Assembly (NCBI RefSeq): GCF_002305875.1
Contig: NZ_CP022098.1
Location: forward strand, 2,852,001 to 2,916,000
Direction of reading: 5' to 3'
DNA length: 64,000 bases
From: Cystobacter fuscus
GTDB lineage: Bacteria > Myxococcota > Myxococcia > Myxococcales > Myxococcaceae
Below the pieces are notes generated by a model. That model was not told where the DNA came from, did not search any database, and was given only the letters and a program-made list of their open reading frames with translations. The translations under genes and the position numbers were made by a program. Numbering within the stretch: the stretch's first letter is position 1; each line of letters starts with the position of its first letter. Positions 34,205 to 44,381 of this stretch are shown in pieces.

Positions 34205-34873
34205 TCACGGCTCGTCGATGGAGGCACTCCTCACGCCGGGAAGCGTGCCGCGCAGTCCCTCGAGCAACTGGAAACCATCCATCCGCTCCGGGAGGGCGAG
34301 CTCGAAGACGGCGGTGCCTTCCCGGGACGCCGGCACCTGTTCGATCGCGAGCATGCGTGCGTCGGGATGCATGGCTCGCAGCGGGGGCAGGGCGGCTCCC
34401 AGGTCCTCCACGCTCAGCGACAGCTTGACCCACTGGGGGCGGCGCTGTGCCGTCATATCCAGCGCGACGAGGACGGCGCCGAGAAATCCCGTGGCGCAGA
34501 TGGCCACCCGGAAGGCGCCGAGGCCACAGGACATGCCCACGCCGATGAGCACGAACATGACGGCCGCGTCGCGCGTGTCCTTGATGCCCGAGCGGAAGCG
34601 GATGAATCCGCCGAGCCCCACCAGTCCGAAGGCGCGCGACATGCTGTCCCCAATCACCGTCGTCATCACCGCGCCGGCCACGGCGATGAGCAACTGGGTA
34701 TGCGCGGTCTCCTGGGGCATCACGGGGGCGGACGGCATCCACCGGCGCCAGGGCCGGTAGGCCAGGAGCGCGCCGAGCACCAGGGCGAGGCTGAAGCGCA
34801 GCAGGGCCTCGGGGATGAACAGCTCGTGGGGATCCGACACGTCCGTGCGCGTCAGCATCTCAAGCGGTGGCAT
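34205..34873 (-). CDS. DUF4956-like polytopic membrane protein
   Basis: A 222-residue membrane protein with about five hydrophobic segments: residues 24-42, 63-82, 108-125 and 127-140 are clear. The motif FGLVGLGGFIRFRSGIKDTRDAAVMFVL is the diagnostic loop of DUF4956/MgtC-type proteins (G-x-x-x-I-R-F-R followed by D-x-x-D-A). The last 75 residues form a soluble domain. It overlaps the thymidylate-kinase-like gene by 14 bases (34860-34873), as last gene of the five-gene operon. DUF4956 proteins often neighbour VTC and CotH genes; their function is unknown. Confidence 0.8.
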   Translation of the reverse strand: MPPLEMLTRTDVSDPHELFIPEALLRFSLALVLGALLAYRPWRRWMPSAPVMPQETAHTQLLIAVAGAVMTTVIGDSMSRAFGLVGLGGFIRFRSGIKDTRDAAVMFVLIGVGMSCGLGAFRVAICATGFLGAVLVALDMTAQRRPQWVKLSLSVEDLGAALPPLRAMHPDARMLAIEQVPASREGTAVFELALPERMDGFQLLEGLRGTLPGVRSASIDEP

Positions 34874-36545
34874 GAAGCCGCTCCTGTCCAGGGTGTGCCG
34901 CCACCCGCGCCGCCTGCCGCAACAGGGCGAAATCCCGGGGATGGTCCGTGAGCAGCCGGGAGATGAGCTCCTGTCCCCGAGCGCTCGAGGCCAGGGGTCC
35001 CATGCTCTTCACCGTGGCCGCGGGCCACGTGTCCGCCAGCGCCTGGCGCAGCCGCCACGCCGTGGCTCCGTCCATCCCCTCGAAGGACTCCAGGGCCTCC
35101 TCGCAGGAGACGCCAAAGGACTCGCGCAGGGCCCAGGCCCGAGGGTTGTTCAACCCTCGCAGGGACTCGAGGACGAGCCGCGAGGCCCGCCCCGCGTGTT
35201 GTTCGCGCAAGGCCCACGCCCGCTCACTGTCGAGTCCCTCCAGGGTGCGCAGCACGGCATCCGGCGCCACCTCCCACGTCCGCTCCCGCCAGTCCCAGGC
35301 GGGTGTGTCATCCACGCCCCGGATGGATCGGCAGGCGATGCGCGCCACCTTCTCCTGACCGAGCGCCGCCTGACCTCCCCGCTGGGACAGCCAGCGCTCG
35401 CGCAGCACCCAGGCCCGCGCGTCGCCGAGCCCCGTGAGCGAGGTGACCACGGGCTCCGGAAACCTCCCGTGGAGGCGCTCGCGCATCGCCCACGCCTGTT
35501 CCGAGCCGAGCCCATCCAGGGAGGCGGCGACGGCCTCGGGCGCCCGCTGTTCCCACCGCTCCCGGAGCGCCCACGCCTGGGAGGACTCCGCGGCCGGCTC
35601 CTTGAGCGAGCCGAGCACCTGCATGGGCGCGGCGTCCTCCAGGCGGGCCCGCAGGCTCCACGCGCTCGCGTCGGTGAGGCCGGAGAGGCCATGGGCGATG
35701 AGCTCGGGGCAGCGCGCGGCCAGCCGCTCACGGCGCGTGTCGATGTCCGCGCCTTCCAGTCCCGAGAGGAACCAGGCGGCGAGCCCCGGCTCTTCCTCCA
35801 TCCACCGGTCCACCCGTTCGAGGAATCGCGCCCGGGCCTCGTCGGCGGAGCGGGGCGGGGTCGGAGCACGAGGAGAGGGGAACGGGGTGCCCGGCTCGCC
35901 CCCGCGCACCATCCGCAGCACCTCCTGGGTGAGCTGGGTGACGAGCGCCTCGAGCGTCACGTCCGTGTTCTCGATGAGGGTCCATTGCTCGGGCGACTCC
36001 GCGGCGAGTGCCCGGTAGCCGGCGCGCAGCCGGGTCTGCATGCCCGCTCCGGCGAGCCCCTTGCGTGAGGAGGGAGCCCCCGTGTCGGGCGCGAGCAGCT
36101 TCGAGATGCGGCGGCGGGCGCGCGCGATGGCCGGGTCCACGTCGATGAGGAAGACGCGCTCGGGCCGCAGTCCCCGGGTGCAGGCGTCCACGACGGGGCG
36201 CACCGCGTGCTCGGGCAGACCCCGTCCCCACCGGGCGAGCACCTCGGCGGTGTAGAGGAAGCGGTCGGCGATGACGACCTCGTACTCGGCGAGCGCCGGG
36301 CGCGTCACCTCCTCCAGCAACTGGGTCTCGCGGGCGGAGTAGAGGAGCAGCTCCGCCATGGGGGTGAGCGCGAGGTGGAGGGGATTCTTGGTGAAGAGCC
36401 TCAGTCCCTCGGACACGGGCGAGGCCAGCTTGCCGTCCTCGCGCACGTGCCGCACGCGCAGCCCCGCCTGGCGCAGCTCCCGTGCCACGCGGTTGGACAG
36501 CGTCGTCTTGCCGGAACCATCGATTCCCTCGAATACGATCAGCAT
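34860..36545 (-). CDS. Thymidylate-kinase-like P-loop protein fused to an AWxLRE repeat region
   Basis: A 561-residue fusion. Residues 1-210 resemble dTMP kinase: the P-loop is GIDGSGKTT at 7-15, the base-binding DRF is near 94, and RPERVFLIDVDPAIARARRR leads into the lid. The usual REPGGT of Tmk is replaced by REDGKLASP. Residues about 230-540 carry eight repeats with the motif A-W-x-L-R at 26-29-residue spacing (one is 38), for example QAWALRERWEQRAPEAV and RAWALREQHAGRA. These would form a helical repeat solenoid with Trp and Arg at fixed places. The start overlaps the porin stop by one base (TGATG). A housekeeping Tmk normally has about 210 residues, so this is a specialised P-loop kinase; PPK2 polyphosphate kinases have the same fold, which could matter here. 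Confidence 0.78.
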   Translation of the reverse strand: MLIVFEGIDGSGKTTLSNRVARELRQAGLRVRHVREDGKLASPVSEGLRLFTKNPLHLALTPMAELLLYSARETQLLEEVTRPALAEYEVVIADRFLYTAEVLARWGRGLPEHAVRPVVDACTRGLRPERVFLIDVDPAIARARRRISKLLAPDTGAPSSRKGLAGAGMQTRLRAGYRALAAESPEQWTLIENTDVTLEALVTQLTQEVLRMVRGGEPGTPFPSPRAPTPPRSADEARARFLERVDRWMEEEPGLAAWFLSGLEGADIDTRRERLAARCPELIAHGLSGLTDASAWSLRARLEDAAPMQVLGSLKEPAAESSQAWALRERWEQRAPEAVAASLDGLGSEQAWAMRERLHGRFPEPVVTSLTGLGDARAWVLRERWLSQRGGQAALGQEKVARIACRSIRGVDDTPAWDWRERTWEVAPDAVLRTLEGLDSERAWALREQHAGRASRLVLESLRGLNNPRAWALRESFGVSCEEALESFEGMDGATAWRLRQALADTWPAATVKSMGPLASSARGQELISRLLTDHPRDFALLRQAARVAAHPGQERLHATA

Positions 36546-37675
36546 CAGAACACCACCTCCAACTGCAACAGCAGGGCCTTGCGGGTGACGAGGTCATCGT
36601 CCAGGACACTCAGCAGGGCCGGGACGGCGGCCTGGGCCACGCGGCGCTCGACCTGCGCCTGCAACCGCCAGCGCCGCCACTGTCCGACGTTGACGCCTCC
36701 CACCGCTTCTCCCAGCAGATCGTTCTGCGTCTTCAGGTCCGGCTCGAGCACCGAGAGCATGGCGAAGGGCTCCGCGTACCAGGCGCCCTTGGACACGCCG
36801 CCGAAGCGCACCGCCGTCAGGGCGCGCCCGGTGAGCATCCGTCCCTGGGCGCCCGACAGCACGGACGAGCGTCCCACCAGCACCTCGGCCCAGGAGCGCC
36901 ACTCGCCCCAGCCGAACGGCAGCGCGTGCTTCAAGTCGAGTCCGGCCGTCCAGTTGGCCGCCACGCCGCTCGGGCTCGTGCCCAGCAGCTCCGCCCGCGC
37001 GGAGCCGCCCAGCTCGAGCGACTCCAACACCTGCCACGTCGCCCGGGCCATGGGCACGAGGCCGAGTCCCTTCTGGAGGCTGGCCCGCTCGGGGTCGTTC
37101 TGGAACACGCCCGCGCGTACCCGCACCACCCGCTCGCAGCCCGTGCACTGCCATTCCAGCTGCGCACCGACGCGGCGGCCGGTGAGGTTGAGCGTGTCCT
37201 CGGACAACACCTCGCGCAGCAGGCCCCGGCGCACCACGGGCAGCCGCGCGGTGGACTCCAGCTCCACGAGTGACAGGGGCACCTTGAACTGGCCCACCCG
37301 GACGGCGAGCCCGTCGACGAGCTTCAGCGAGGCGTAGGCGTCCTTGAGTCCGTCCGTGACGTCGAACTCCACCACGGCCTTCAGGCGCTTCTTCCATTGA
37401 TAGGTGAATTCCAGACGCGCGGAGGAAATGGACAGGATGCCCTTGAGCACCTTGTCCTCCTTGGCGCTGAGGGCCTCGCGGGCGCGCAGCCGGCCACCGA
37501 TCTCCACCGAGCCGAAGGCGGAGGGCAGCACGAGGCTCGCCTCGGTGTTGCCGCTGGGGGGCGGGCTGGCGTCGGACGGGCCCTGGTGTTGATCCGAATC
37601 CTGGGCCTGGGCGGAGGACACCAGGAGCAGCGTGGCGAGGACGAGCCACCGCGCGGGAGGAAAGGCCGGCTTCAT
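36545..37675 (-). CDS. OprO/OprP-like porin
   Basis: A 376-residue outer-membrane beta-barrel candidate with a cleavable signal peptide (residues 1-24, ending AQAQ) and a terminal Phe. GSVEIGGRLRAR, DAYASLKLVDGLAVRVGQFKVPLSL and LTGRRVGAQLEW match the phosphate-selective porin O/P family, in which the GQFKxP block is typical. The N-terminal 45 residues form a Pro/Ser/Gln linker rather than the coiled coil seen in some members. The start overlaps the VTC stop (ATGA) and its stop overlaps the next start. OprO binds polyphosphate or pyrophosphate in Pseudomonas, which fits a neighbour that makes polyphosphate; whether this porin does so is inferred. Confidence 0.75.
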   Translation of the reverse strand: MKPAFPPARWLVLATLLLVSSAQAQDSDQHQGPSDASPPPSGNTEASLVLPSAFGSVEIGGRLRAREALSAKEDKVLKGILSISSARLEFTYQWKKRLKAVVEFDVTDGLKDAYASLKLVDGLAVRVGQFKVPLSLVELESTARLPVVRRGLLREVLSEDTLNLTGRRVGAQLEWQCTGCERVVRVRAGVFQNDPERASLQKGLGLVPMARATWQVLESLELGGSARAELLGTSPSGVAANWTAGLDLKHALPFGWGEWRSWAEVLVGRSSVLSGAQGRMLTGRALTAVRFGGVSKGAWYAEPFAMLSVLEPDLKTQNDLLGEAVGGVNVGQWRRWRLQAQVERRVAQAAVPALLSVLDDDLVTRKALLLQLEVVF

Positions 37676-38439
37676 GGCAGGTCCATCTCCGCGTCCAGGC
37701 GCCAGCGCATGCCTTGTTCGAACTTCGAGTCCTGGGTCTCGAAAACCTCCAGGTTGCGCAGACAGTCGCGCAGCCACGGGGGGCTGTTCGCCCGCCACTT
37801 CACCTCGAGCAGGATGGCGGGGGCGTGACGGATGAGCCGCTCGGGCATGGCGGGCGCTCCCGGTCCGGTGGGCCGGGGCGGAAGGGCGAACACGAGATCC
37901 TCGTCCACGGTGAAGCGCACGCTGGCGTCGGCGTTCGCGTGGGTGCCGCGCCGGTACCAGGCCGTCACCCAGGGCCTGACGGGGCCATGGGGACTGTCGC
38001 GCAGCAACCGGGCCGCCGCGCTGTCCTCGTCGAGGGATCCACCCGCCAACAGGGCCACCGCTTCGCCCGGGGACACGGGGATGCGGACCTTGGTGCGCCG
38101 CTGACCCGTGTTGGTCTTCATCTCCAGGTAGCGCGTGCCGGTGAGCACGGGGGGCTCGGACAGGGAGGCACTTCCCGCGTACTCCCGGAGCCGCAGCCGC
38201 TGCGTATGTCCATGGCGGCACGAGTCCAGGAAGCGCAGATCCTCGGTGTCGAAGTAGGTCGTCCGCGTGAAGGCGAATGGCAGGCGGGCGTCGTACACAC
38301 AGGGTTGGGTCCAGGGGCGGGTGGCCCGCATGAAGTCCTCCAGCGCCGTGCGGGAGGGCAGGAAGCGCCGCTCATGGTCCTGCTGCGACGCGAGGGGGGG
38401 GGAGGGGAGGGAGGGACTCATGCGGGCCACCGCGCTCAT
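37672..38439 (-). CDS. VTC-domain polyphosphate polymerase-like protein
   Basis: A 255-residue soluble protein of the VTC family (PF09359), whose eukaryotic member Vtc4 makes polyphosphate from ATP within a tunnel-shaped beta barrel lined by Lys and Arg. Typical blocks are HERRFLPS (basic residues at the first strand), TTYFDTEDLRFLD, RLRLREY, YLEMKTN, RRTKVRIPV and AILLEVKWR. These supply the conserved basic and acidic positions. No SPX domain or membrane segment is present, so this is a stand-alone catalytic module. It overlaps both neighbours by ATGA. Catalytic activity is expected but not shown. Confidence 0.88.
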   Translation of the reverse strand: MSAVARMSPSLPSPPLASQQDHERRFLPSRTALEDFMRATRPWTQPCVYDARLPFAFTRTTYFDTEDLRFLDSCRHGHTQRLRLREYAGSASLSEPPVLTGTRYLEMKTNTGQRRTKVRIPVSPGEAVALLAGGSLDEDSAAARLLRDSPHGPVRPWVTAWYRRGTHANADASVRFTVDEDLVFALPPRPTGPGAPAMPERLIRHAPAILLEVKWRANSPPWLRDCLRNLEVFETQDSKFEQGMRWRLDAEMDLP

Positions 38440-40031
38440 GGAGTGGCTCCCAGGGCTGCCTTGACCTCACCCTGACGCCGGGCGGCGAAGCCCAGCAGCC
38501 CGTTGGTGCCGCTGAACGCGTCGATGAACGCCTGGGGCGAGCTCAGGAAGGTGTAGCCCGGCTGCTCGGCGTTCTCGCCCACCACCCAGGGAGTGATGAG
38601 CTCATGCGCCGCGCGCAGGCGGGCCTGGAACGGCTCCGGTGCCATCACCCCGTTCGCGGCCTCCAGCGCGTACCTCGTGTAGTCGGCCTTGTAGGTGGGG
38701 TCGTCGAGCAGGTAGCGGATGAGTGGCCAGGTGGCGTCGGTGGTGTCGTACGTCAGGGACGTGGACCGGCCCATGCCCTCGCCCATGGAGCGATCATGGT
38801 CCCAGGTAATCCAATGCAGCCGGCCGTTCTCCTGGGAGTGGGCGTAGAGATAGTAGTTGTGGGACATGGCGCCGTAGGCGTCCCAGTTCTGGACCACGGT
38901 GTTGACCGCGAGCCACTTGAGGAAGCCCTGCACGTTCAGCTTCTGCTCGAGGCGCGCGCGCCAGGCAGCCGCGTCGCTCCGGTCGGAGTGGAGGGCGTTG
39001 ATGGCTTCCTGCACGGGAGTCCAGCCAATCTCCTCGTTGGCCTGGATGTCGAAGGACGCCTCGTCGAAGGTGCCCCAGCGGGCGCCGGTGCCATCGGCCT
39101 CGTAGAGCGCGCCCTTGTGTTCCCCGAAGTAGCCGTCGAGCAGCGAGTTGTTGTCGATGTCCTCGTCGAGCGTATAGAGGCCCCAGTACTGGGTGCCCTC
39201 GCCATGGTCCACGTACAGGGCGACGAAGGCGGTGCGGGGCGCGGGCACACCGGACTCGCGGAAGATGTCCGAGGCGATCTTGTCGCGCATGAGCGACGCG
39301 TCGGCCGCGCCATTGCCCAGCGACAGCGTCTTGAAGCCGTAGAAGCGCTGATCCTGCGTCTCGGGATGCTCATCCTCGAACTTGTCGAAGTTCAGACGCA
39401 GCGGCAGCTTGGACACACCGCTGCGCCAGGTCTGCGCCAGCGAGGAATTGCCCTTCATGCGCACGCCGATGTAGGGCCAGGTCTTGCCCTCGAACTTGAA
39501 GGTCGCGGGCACGTAGACGGGCGTGTTGGGGATGATGTCCCCGCCGCCGCCCCCACCCGGAGCGCCACCGCCACCGCCACCGAACTGTGGCCTGCAGATG
39601 AGTTGCGCGCCGCCCGGACCCTGCTCACAGGTACTGGTGAAGGTGTTTCCCTGGAAGGTGGCGGTGCAGGCGTCTCCCGCGGCCTTGTCCACGCACGGCT
39701 CGGTGAGCTCCACGGGAATCTGCCCGCCTCCCGGGCCTCCACCGCCTCCACCGGGGCCGCCTCCACCGCCTCCCGGGCCCATGCCACCGCCCGCGCCGAA
39801 CTCGCCCGCCATGGCGGTCATGTCGTCCTGCATCTTCTGCCAGTCCGCGGGGGCGATGATGAGGTCGAACCTCTTCACCTGCTCCTGGGGAAAGACGACG
39901 GCATAGGCGGGAGCGGCGTTCTTGCCGTGGGACTCCTCGCTCCATCCCTCGATGGGCTCGGTGCCTCCACACGCGGAGGTGAAGGTGAAGACGACGGTGG
40001 CGAATGCGCCAAGGCGCGGACTTCGGTGCAT
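38436..40031 (-). CDS. CotH kinase family lipoprotein
   Basis: A 531-residue protein with a lipoprotein signal (TSAC, Cys20). Residues 40-70 start the CotH fold (FDLIIAPADWQKM). An insertion of about 110 residues follows, with two Gly-rich stretches (GPGGGGGGPGG type) and four Cys. The kinase region contains RMKGNSSLAQ, LPLRLNFDKFE and a late HWITWDHDRSMGEG with the D-H-D that matches the metal-binding D-x-D of CotH kinases. CotH in Bacillus spores phosphorylates coat proteins; here the target is unknown but lies in the envelope. The ATG at 40031 has GAGAGG upstream. It is the first gene of the five-gene operon. Confidence 0.85.
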   Translation of the reverse strand: MHRSPRLGAFATVVFTFTSACGGTEPIEGWSEESHGKNAAPAYAVVFPQEQVKRFDLIIAPADWQKMQDDMTAMAGEFGAGGGMGPGGGGGGPGGGGGGPGGGQIPVELTEPCVDKAAGDACTATFQGNTFTSTCEQGPGGAQLICRPQFGGGGGGAPGGGGGGDIIPNTPVYVPATFKFEGKTWPYIGVRMKGNSSLAQTWRSGVSKLPLRLNFDKFEDEHPETQDQRFYGFKTLSLGNGAADASLMRDKIASDIFRESGVPAPRTAFVALYVDHGEGTQYWGLYTLDEDIDNNSLLDGYFGEHKGALYEADGTGARWGTFDEASFDIQANEEIGWTPVQEAINALHSDRSDAAAWRARLEQKLNVQGFLKWLAVNTVVQNWDAYGAMSHNYYLYAHSQENGRLHWITWDHDRSMGEGMGRSTSLTYDTTDATWPLIRYLLDDPTYKADYTRYALEAANGVMAPEPFQARLRAAHELITPWVVGENAEQPGYTFLSSPQAFIDAFSGTNGLLGFAARRQGEVKAALGATP

Positions 40032-40149
40032 GAGGGTCCTCTCGGAAGGAAACGGGGGTTCCTTCGCCAGGGCGGGCGGTGGGCCTGCCCTGGCGTCACG
40101 AGTGGCCACCCTGGAGCGTGCCAGTGACCCCTTCTTTACGCGTTTGTGA

Positions 40150-40162
40150 CGAAATATTTTCG
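40150..40162. promoter_or_regulatory. AT-rich palindrome in the cotH upstream region
   Basis: CGAAATATTTTCG has perfect CGAAA/TTTCG arms around TAT. It lies about 120 bases ahead of the cotH start, within the 219-base gap 40032-40250, the only AT-rich spot there. It could be an operator or promoter element for the CotH-VTC operon. No other feature is seen in the gap. Confidence 0.35.
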
Positions 40163-42134: not shown

Positions 42135-44381
42135 ATGCGAATCAGCGCGCCGTGGTGGATGAGCAGGTTGTTGGCGGTCTGGCTCGGAGTCTTGTTGGGA
42201 GTTGGCTGTGGGCAGCCGGGTGGTGCTTCCGAAGAGCCGGAGGTGCTGGACTCTTCCCTGCTGGGTCCGTGGGCTCGAGCCCGTGTCGCCGCGGGAATGG
42301 ATCATTCCCTGGTCGTGCGTCTGGATGGATCGGTCTGGGCGGCGGGTGACAATTCGGACGGCCAATTGGGGGATGGGACCACGGTCTCTCGCCACGTGCC
42401 GGTGCGAGTACGCGGGTTGCGAGGAGTGGTGGCCGTGGCCGCCGGCACCGGCCATTCACTGGCACTGCGCCATGACGGCAGCGTGTGGGCCTGGGGCAAC
42501 AATGCCTTTGGCCAGTTGGGGGACGGAACCTCGGACAGCCACTCCGAGCCGGTGCGGGTGCGAGGGTTGAGCGGAGTGACGGCCGTATCCGCGGGCGAGG
42601 GCCATTCACTGGCACTGCGCCATGACGGCAGCGTGTGGGCCTGGGGCGACAATGCCTTTGGCCAGTTGGGAGACGGAACCTCGGACAGTCACTCCGAGCC
42701 GGTGCGGGTGCGAGGGTTGAGTGGAGTGGTGGCCGTGTCCGCGGGCGACAATCACTCGCTGGTGCTGCGCTCGGATGGCTCCGTCTGGGCGTGGGGCGAC
42801 AACAGCTCCGACCAACTGGGGGGAGCTCCTGGAGATCAAAGCTATTCCGTGCCATGGCGGTTGGAAGACCTGAGTGGGGTGGTGGCCGTGGTCGCGGGTG
42901 GTAATCACTCCCTGGCGGTGCGTTCCGACGGCAGCGTGTGGGCCTGGGGCGACAACTTCGCCGGCCAGTTGGGAGACGGAAACATCCTGACCACCCGCTG
43001 GCTGCCGCGGCAGGTCCAGGGGTTGAGCGGGGTGGTGGCCGTGTCCGCGGGCTGGGCCCACTCGATGGTGGTGCTCTCCGACGGGACCGTGTGGACCTGG
43101 GGCAACAACACCTCTGGCCAGTTGGGCAACGGCATCTCGGTGGCGTACGGCGCCCTGCCGGAGCAGGTGCAAGGATTGCGCGGGGTGATGGCCGTGGCGG
43201 CTGGCGGTCTCTACTCGCTGGCGCTGCGCTACGACGGCACCCTGTGGGCCTGGGGCTCCAACGACCATGGCCAGCGCGGAGATGGTTCCACGGTCTATCT
43301 CTCCTCGTCGGTGCGGGTGCGAGGGCTGAGCGGGGTGGTGGCCATGGCCGCGGGCTCCGCCCACTCCCTGGCGGTGCGTTCCGACGGCACCCTGTGGGCC
43401 TGGGGGGCCAACTACTACGGCCAACTGGGGGATGGGACCCGGGAGGATCACATCACCCCGAAGCGGGTGCAGGGGCTGAGCGGAGTGGTGGCCGTGGCCG
43501 CGGGGGACGGTCACTCGCTCGCGCTGCTCGCCGACGGCACCGTGTGGACCTGGGGCTACAACCAAGAGGGTCAGCTGGGGCATGGCTCCACGAACGCCAG
43601 CCCCGTGCCGCTGCATGTGCGAGAGCTGAGCGGGGTGGTGGCCGTGGCCGCGGGGGCACTGCACTCGCTGGCGGTGCTCTCCGATGGCTCCGTGTGGACC
43701 TGGGGCTACAACAGACAGGGCCAGCTGGGAGATGGCAGCCTGATCAGCAGCGCCGAGCCGGTGCGGGTACAGGGGCTGAGCGGGGTGGCCGCCGTGTCCG
43801 CTGGCCTCAACCACTCGCTGGCGAGGGGCACCGATGGCAGCGTGTGGGCCTGGGGCGGCAACTCCTTCGGCCAACTGGGAGAGGGCACCACGAGCAACGC
43901 CCTGGTGCCGGTGCGGGTGCGGGGGTTGAGCGGGGTGGAGACAATCTCCGCTGGCTTCAACCACTCGCTGGCGAGGGGGGCCGATGGCGGCGTGTGGGCC
44001 TGGGGCGGCAACTACACCGGTCAACTGGGAGATGGGACCACGAGCAACAGTTCCGTGCCGGTACGGGTGCAGGGGCTGAGCGGAGTGACGACCCTGTTCG
44101 CTGGCCTCAACCACTCGCTGGCGGTGCGCACCGACGGTTCCGTGTGGGCCTGGGGCATCAACTCCTTTGGCCAGTTGGGAGATGGGACCACGAACACCAG
44201 TTTCGTGCCGGTACAGGTGCGGGGGCTGAGCGGGGTGAAGACGGTAGCCGCTGGTTCTCTTCACTCGCTGTCCGTGGGCTCCGACGGCTCCATGTGGTCC
44301 TGGGGGAACAACCACTACGGCCAGTTGGGCCATGGGCTTCCCGGAAGATCTCCCACCCCCGTTCGCTCCCTGCTGTATTGA
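42135..44381 (+). CDS. RCC1-repeat surface lipoprotein (14 units)
   Basis: A 748-residue protein with a signal peptide and a lipobox-like GVGC (Cys25). The rest is 14 RCC1-type units of 50 residues or so, each containing HSL-x-x-x-x-DG-S/T-V-W-x-W-G-x-N-x-x-G-Q-L-G-D-G. Fourteen units would make two seven-bladed propellers. Units 2 and 3 are nearly identical over 150 bases of DNA each. In bacteria such proteins usually sit on the surface or are secreted, and the propeller mediates protein contacts. No catalytic domain exists. The start ATG at 42135 opens the signal sequence. Ligand unknown. Confidence 0.85.
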   Translation: MRISAPWWMSRLLAVWLGVLLGVGCGQPGGASEEPEVLDSSLLGPWARARVAAGMDHSLVVRLDGSVWAAGDNSDGQLGDGTTVSRHVPVRVRGLRGVVAVAAGTGHSLALRHDGSVWAWGNNAFGQLGDGTSDSHSEPVRVRGLSGVTAVSAGEGHSLALRHDGSVWAWGDNAFGQLGDGTSDSHSEPVRVRGLSGVVAVSAGDNHSLVLRSDGSVWAWGDNSSDQLGGAPGDQSYSVPWRLEDLSGVVAVVAGGNHSLAVRSDGSVWAWGDNFAGQLGDGNILTTRWLPRQVQGLSGVVAVSAGWAHSMVVLSDGTVWTWGNNTSGQLGNGISVAYGALPEQVQGLRGVMAVAAGGLYSLALRYDGTLWAWGSNDHGQRGDGSTVYLSSSVRVRGLSGVVAMAAGSAHSLAVRSDGTLWAWGANYYGQLGDGTREDHITPKRVQGLSGVVAVAAGDGHSLALLADGTVWTWGYNQEGQLGHGSTNASPVPLHVRELSGVVAVAAGALHSLAVLSDGSVWTWGYNRQGQLGDGSLISSAEPVRVQGLSGVAAVSAGLNHSLARGTDGSVWAWGGNSFGQLGEGTTSNALVPVRVRGLSGVETISAGFNHSLARGADGGVWAWGGNYTGQLGDGTTSNSSVPVRVQGLSGVTTLFAGLNHSLAVRTDGSVWAWGINSFGQLGDGTTNTSFVPVQVRGLSGVKTVAAGSLHSLSVGSDGSMWSWGNNHYGQLGHGLPGRSPTPVRSLLY
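42450..42729 (+). repeat. Near-identical 150-base tandem repeats within the RCC1 gene
   Basis: The stretch 42450-42579 recurs at 42600-42729 with only a few differences (offset exactly 150 bases, 50 codons). The other RCC1 units are similar at the protein level but diverged in DNA. This indicates a recent unit duplication or conversion. Confidence 0.85.

Follow-up and report, generated by a model that had tools for sequence, protein, structure and literature searches.

Genes for CotH, VTC and DUF4956 proteins co-occur in many bacteria, and to our knowledge no function has been agreed for the set. CotH proteins of spore coats are protein kinases. In Gram-positive bacteria, Pel operons are flanked by genes for CotH, VTC (a polyphosphate polymerase), DUF4956 and DUF4832 (PMC7112168), and deletion of the CotH and DUF4956-like genes of Streptococcus intermedius lowers both Pel and aggregation (PMC12345266). 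The eukaryotic relative of the VTC protein is the yeast VTC complex (Vtc4/Vtc3/Vtc1), in which R264, R266 and E426 of Vtc4 are catalytic (PMC9911596). Two further systems bear on the locus described here: the OprP and OprO porins of Pseudomonas, which are enriched 82-fold and 87-fold, respectively, under Pi starvation (PMC9769906), and Pho boxes, which are direct repeats at 11-base steps (PMC4415409).

Here, we describe a five-gene operon of the myxobacterium Cystobacter fuscus (GCF_002305875.1, contig NZ_CP022098.1), located in a window of 64,000 nt (the whole stretch of DNA that was analysed, forward-strand positions 2,852,001–2,916,000) of a genome that forms a single contig of 12.35 Mb. 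Like the Gram-positive Pel accessory genes (S. intermedius SIR_1592–1594; PMC7112168, PMC12345266), it contains CotH, VTC and DUF4956 genes in one contiguous set; the initial annotation was thus right that this trio is known to co-occur. We regard the operon as a variant of that known module, to which it adds Pi-transporter linkage and three new elements: an OprP-like porin, a solenoid-bearing kinase derived from thymidylate kinase (Tmk) and a promoter with a Pho-box-like operator. In contrast to the Gram-positive hosts, C. fuscus is without Pel genes, as judged by PelG, which was searched for in its genome and is absent. A Pel link is therefore rejected for this organism, and the module can work without Pel. 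Another version of the accessory set does adjoin Pel genes in the myxobacterial metagenome-assembled genome (MAG) UBA2376 (L189 with L083, 1209–13616), where pelF-pelG-kinase is divergent from DUF4832-VTC-HEAT-CotH-CotH. With this locus, the Pel accessory set of Gram-positive bacteria has a Gram-negative counterpart. A DUF4956 match inside the PelG region of L083/L125 was discarded as a wrong-frame artefact.

The operon resembles the yeast VTC complex in its catalytic tunnel domain, in a likely membrane partner and in probable phosphate control. However, the window protein of 255 aa shows neither an SPX domain nor a Vtc1-like membrane subunit, its membrane partner would be the unrelated DUF4956 protein, and the porin, the kinase and CotH have no yeast counterpart.

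Operon architecture

The operon and its promoter comprise the following features:

40124–40150, minus strand: Pho-box-like operator of three units at 11-base steps (GTCAC-N6-GTAA(A)-N6-GTCAC), 92 bases ahead of the CotH start
38436–40031, minus strand: CotH-family kinase-fold lipoprotein, 531 aa (Pfam CotH 8e-60), with lipobox FTSAC and a Gly-rich linker
37672–38439, minus strand: VTC-domain protein, 255 aa (Pfam VTC 5e-17; Vtc4 E 2e-14), probable ATP-dependent polyphosphate polymerase
36545–37675, minus strand: outer-membrane porin, 376 aa (Pfam Porin_O_P 6e-9), with signal peptide and a modelled OprP/OprO-like fold
34860–36545, minus strand: Tmk-derived P-loop kinase with C-terminal helical-repeat solenoid, 561 aa (Pfam Thymidylate_kin 1e-19)
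35901–36545, minus strand: P-loop kinase domain of this protein, residues 1–215; ATP site retained, thymine pocket gone, LID motif SRKGLxGxG new
34899–35846, minus strand: helical-repeat solenoid of this protein, residues ~234–549, in units of ~33–36 aa with AWxLRE and without a Pfam match
34205–34873, minus strand: DUF4956 (MgtC-like) inner-membrane protein, 222 aa (Pfam DUF4956 2e-8)

The five overlapping genes of the initial annotation were confirmed in their positions, their Pfam families and all four junctions. They occupy 34205–40031 of the minus strand in the order CotH-VTC-porin-kinase-DUF4956 (type A), joined by ATGA (-4), ATGA (-4), TGATG (-1) and a 14-base overlap (-14). The CotH lipobox and the porin signal peptide can be read off the sequence directly. 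The DUF4956 protein also matches Pfam MgtC (9e-5), at a score under the MgtC cut-off.

Conservation and variants of the operon

VTC is present in 75 of the 145 genomes of the order, and 40 neighbourhoods were read. The complete type-A order recurs in 18 further loci in the Myxococcaceae, with porin and kinase beside VTC-CotH in each, which bears out the earlier expectation of a gene order kept in relatives. The CotH-VTC (-4), porin-kinase (-1) and kinase-DUF4956 (-14) junctions are identical in 18/18 of the complete operons, and the VTC-porin spacing varies from -4 to +132, with some gene starts in the compared loci being uncertain. Three of the four overlaps are thus conserved, and only a few close relatives share the one between VTC and porin. 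Flanking genes are conserved with the type-A operon only in the nearest relatives, and those in the window (GDSL lipase, RCC1 repeats and a 659-aa lipoprotein) show no conservation with it, so that the unit consists of the five genes, accompanied by DUF47/Pit in some relatives. One of these flanking genes (42135–44381 of the window), adjoining the GDSL lipase with its B-lectin-like tail, encodes a 748-aa protein made up almost entirely of RCC1 repeats (14 stretches).

Several rearranged forms were found. Two genomes have a split type-A operon with all five genes retained, divided into CotH-VTC and porin-kinase-DUF4956 (G108) or into VTC-porin and CotH-kinase-DUF4956 (G083), and one lineage has the order porin-VTC-kinase-DUF4956-CotH. 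A paralogous operon, porin-VTC-kinase-DUF4956-lipoprotein (type B), occurs in most Myxococcaceae and is more widespread than type A; C. fuscus holds a type-B copy as its second operon. The module kinase also reaches a distant phylum, the Planctomycetota (17 of 392 genomes), in a gene set close to that of the myxobacteria: VTC-kinase, with DUF4956, several CotH genes or both usually lying 3′ of this pair. Many of these loci have a barrel-like or porin-like gene without a Pfam name 5′ of VTC-kinase, and some are devoid of porin and CotH. Two planctomycete MAGs (L117 and L120) carry four tandem CotH lipoprotein genes 3′ of VTC-kinase.

A Pho-box-like operator and phosphate transporters

Alignment of the regions upstream of CotH revealed a block, GTCAC-N6-GTAA(A/C)-N6-GTCAC, that is conserved inside otherwise divergent promoters. 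Of 23 orthologous type-A transcription-unit starts, 22 have it with at most one mismatch, while all 4000 of 4000 background segments have at least four mismatches. The operator also precedes detached pieces of split operons, namely VTC-porin-DUF47 (L045), porin-kinase-DUF4956 (L170) and CotH-kinase-DUF4956 (L171); three of the four such pieces keep it, and the fourth (L041) has three mismatches. Across the 12.35-Mb genome, the sole other site with at most one mismatch lies directly ahead of phoB and phoR, which are paired in a locus that also encodes PstS and PstB. PstS and PstB score above their NCBIfam cut-offs, and the PhoB assignment follows the best score, to TIGR02154, which is under the cut-off of that model. 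The operon and phoB/pst promoters thus have direct repeats at 11-base steps in common. In relatives, the motif precedes phoB and pstC (Archangium) or DUF47-Pit (elsewhere). In one locus (L257, 3241–5715), an additional type-A-like CotH gene stands alone and is divergent from DUF47; the intergenic region contains a Pho-box-like site. Other sites recovered with a loosened motif (e.g. position 88727) adjoin no evident phosphate gene and may be due to chance; a reversed-pattern control likewise yields about one match per genome.

Phosphate transport genes also accompany the operon itself. DUF47 lies directly 3′ of the type-A operon in six loci, in one of which Pit follows, and a seventh DUF47 gene lies 3′ of a split-off porin. 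In three MAG loci of the Kofleriaceae and Polyangiaceae type (L081, L084, L086), VTC and the solenoid kinase occur with a Na/Pi cotransporter that replaces DUF4956, and L081 and L086 also encode Pit and DUF47 at a distance of a few kb.

Judged from these promoters, Pho control of the type-A operon is very likely and is the step of our model in which we have most confidence. It is not universal for the module, because no Pho site was found consistently at type-B promoters. These instead carry a sigma-54 -24/-12 element, GGCAC-N5-TTGCA, upstream of the porin gene (at most one mismatch in 13 of 14 loci, including L032), so that the two paralogues seem to be differently controlled.

A Tmk-derived kinase that traces the module

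Retrieval by the kinase alone, through a genome scan and searches of the Myxococcota and Planctomycetota, gave 64 distinct long kinases. Sixty of these have a VTC gene on the same strand within 5 kb, a count from which loci picked through VTC were excluded. Of the other four, one comes from a split operon, one lies at the end of a contig, one is in a Pel locus whose VTC gene is ~8 kb off, and one is in a genome without VTC (G139). The same scan also retrieved 23 ordinary thymidylate kinases, none of which lies near VTC, DUF4956, CotH or porin genes. No partner accompanies the module kinase as constantly as VTC, not even the porin.

The kinase model (pLDDT 90) has the Tmk fold (Z 22.9, residues 1–215) followed by a helical solenoid of ~300 residues. 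As in bacterial Tmk, the ATP site is intact: the P-loop, DR-motif and LID-Arg residues that contact ATP and phosphate (D9, G12, K13, T14, D94, R95 and R144) are present in 64/64 kinases. Unlike Tmk, the family is without the thymine-pocket residues that were looked for (the Arg of DR-A-x-H, the Tyr-Gln of AYQ, and Phe). Position 73, where the DR-A motif has Arg after Asp, is acidic (D or E) in all 64 kinases; position 104, the Gln of AYQ, is S, A, T, G or C in all 64; and position 103, the Tyr of AYQ, is replaced by L (50 kinases), H (9) or, in single cases, other residues. In Tmk structures, these positions contact thymine. The LID, in turn, has gained the motif SRKGLxGxG, each position of which is kept in 60–63 of the 64 kinases. 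The G139 solenoid kinase (L166, 6657–8726) lacks this motif; this single case is suggestive of a tie between the motif and VTC.

Judged by these residues, the fourth gene does not encode a dTMP kinase. The dTMP kinase annotation, for which its NCBIfam score is just over the cut-off (87.1 versus 83.25), was rejected because the pocket residues are lost. A separate canonical Tmk is encoded in the C. fuscus genome. The earlier label of a thymidylate-kinase-like protein thus holds for Pfam family, fold and ATP site but not for function.

VTC, porin, CotH and DUF4956 proteins

The profile match of the VTC protein to yeast Vtc4 (E 2e-14) spans the whole tunnel domain, while Vtc2/3 match over a short stretch only. 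The Vtc4 residues R264, R266 and E426 align with R83, R85 (K/R in others) and E212 of the window protein, and polyphosphate synthesis by this protein is likely. All aligned type-A VTCs, including that of the window (37672–38439), have Glu-x-Arg on the first tunnel strand, where types B and C have Glu-x-Lys; the exchange could weaken catalysis in type A. As the genome also encodes PPK1, VTC would not be the sole polyphosphate route.

Structure models used 16–17 sequences. The porin model (pLDDT 79) is a barrel of ~16 strands whose first three structural matches, with both aligners, are OprP and OprO structures (Z 28.0 for OprP and 27.7 for OprO, versus 25.2 for the next porin). Pho-type control, which the Pseudomonas porins have, is shared with the operon. 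However, the operon porin is only 17% identical to OprP, so that the arginine ladder and lysine cluster of phosphate selectivity cannot be mapped safely, and it differs from OprP/OprO in its setting beside VTC and CotH. Sequence searches of solved structures with the porin and with DUF4956 gave no meaningful match. The CotH protein matches spore coat CotH (5jd9, E 2e-30), and D384, N392, W410 and D411 are invariant in its domain; with the catalytic Asp in place, it is a putative kinase. The C. fuscus genome has five CotH-domain genes, one of them in this operon.

A probable phosphate and polyphosphate system at the cell envelope

The reading that we favour, and consider reasonably probable, places all five genes in the Pho regulon, as an operon whose products handle phosphate and polyphosphate in the envelope of the cell. 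Under low phosphate, a PhoB-type regulator would bind the three-unit operator and switch on the operon along with the phoBR, pst and Pit genes. The OprP/OprO-like porin would let phosphate or short polyphosphates cross the outer membrane, in whichever direction the flux may run, and Pst or Pit, or in some relatives the Na/Pi cotransporter from the same gene cluster, would transport phosphate across the inner membrane. At the inner face of the inner membrane, VTC would polymerise ATP-derived phosphate to polyphosphate, with DUF4956 as membrane partner or channel. The kinase may dock via its solenoid and catalyse phosphoryl transfer between ATP and an acceptor that carries phosphate but is not dTMP, possibly polyphosphate or pyrophosphate. 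CotH would act on its presumed target as the surface lipoprotein kinase of the same system. The initial annotation had proposed a phosphate or polyphosphate envelope system, and this part is strongly and independently backed by the Pho-box-like promoter, the OprP/OprO-like fold, the Vtc4 residues and the Pi transporters of relatives; a functional thymidylate kinase as fourth member is not supported. Going further, the operon could encode the bacterial equivalent of the VTC machine of yeast, with synthesis coupled to translocation through a DUF4956 channel, an OprO-like porin as outer gate and the Tmk-derived kinase as a new enzyme class (with polyphosphate or some other phosphate that is not a nucleotide as its acceptor), and with Pho control over the whole. 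We offer this version tentatively, as possible but not probable.

Other readings share parts of this evidence. The Pel neighbourhoods of Gram-positive bacteria, the S. intermedius deletions and the UBA2376 locus would all fit a role in adhesion or biofilm formation, in which VTC and DUF4956 make and push out polyphosphate that porin and CotH deposit on the surface, bound to a cationic exopolysaccharide such as Pel. We consider this unlikely for C. fuscus, which is without PelG; moreover, none of the type-A loci seen is flanked by exopolysaccharide genes, and the operator points to phosphate supply. The same operator, together with the OprP-like porin and the Pit/DUF47 linkage, would also suit a pure uptake system, where the porin imports Pi or PPi, and VTC, CotH and the kinase have a regulatory or modifying role that involves no synthesis of polyphosphate chains. 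The Vtc4 catalytic residues retained by VTC, and its greater constancy as kinase partner compared with the porin, make this a doubtful prospect, more so than surface deposition. Finally, CotH and the P-loop kinase might phosphorylate an envelope polysaccharide or surface protein, with VTC as another triphosphate tunnel enzyme, e.g. a triphosphatase. Such a role would agree with the established kinase activity of spore-coat CotH and with the up to four or five CotH genes beside VTC-kinase in Planctomycetota, but we deem it the least credible, as it leaves the Vtc4-type match and the Pi-transporter linkage unexplained.

For the CotH-VTC-DUF4956 module, the operon supplies a strong regulatory clue in its Pho-box-like operator and Pi-transporter partners, and the phosphate-type porin ties the module to the outer membrane. 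It also brings to light a family of kinases to which automatic annotation would give the name dTMP kinase despite the missing thymine pocket. Whether a bacterial VTC makes and moves polyphosphate becomes a question that is directly testable in culturable myxobacteria.
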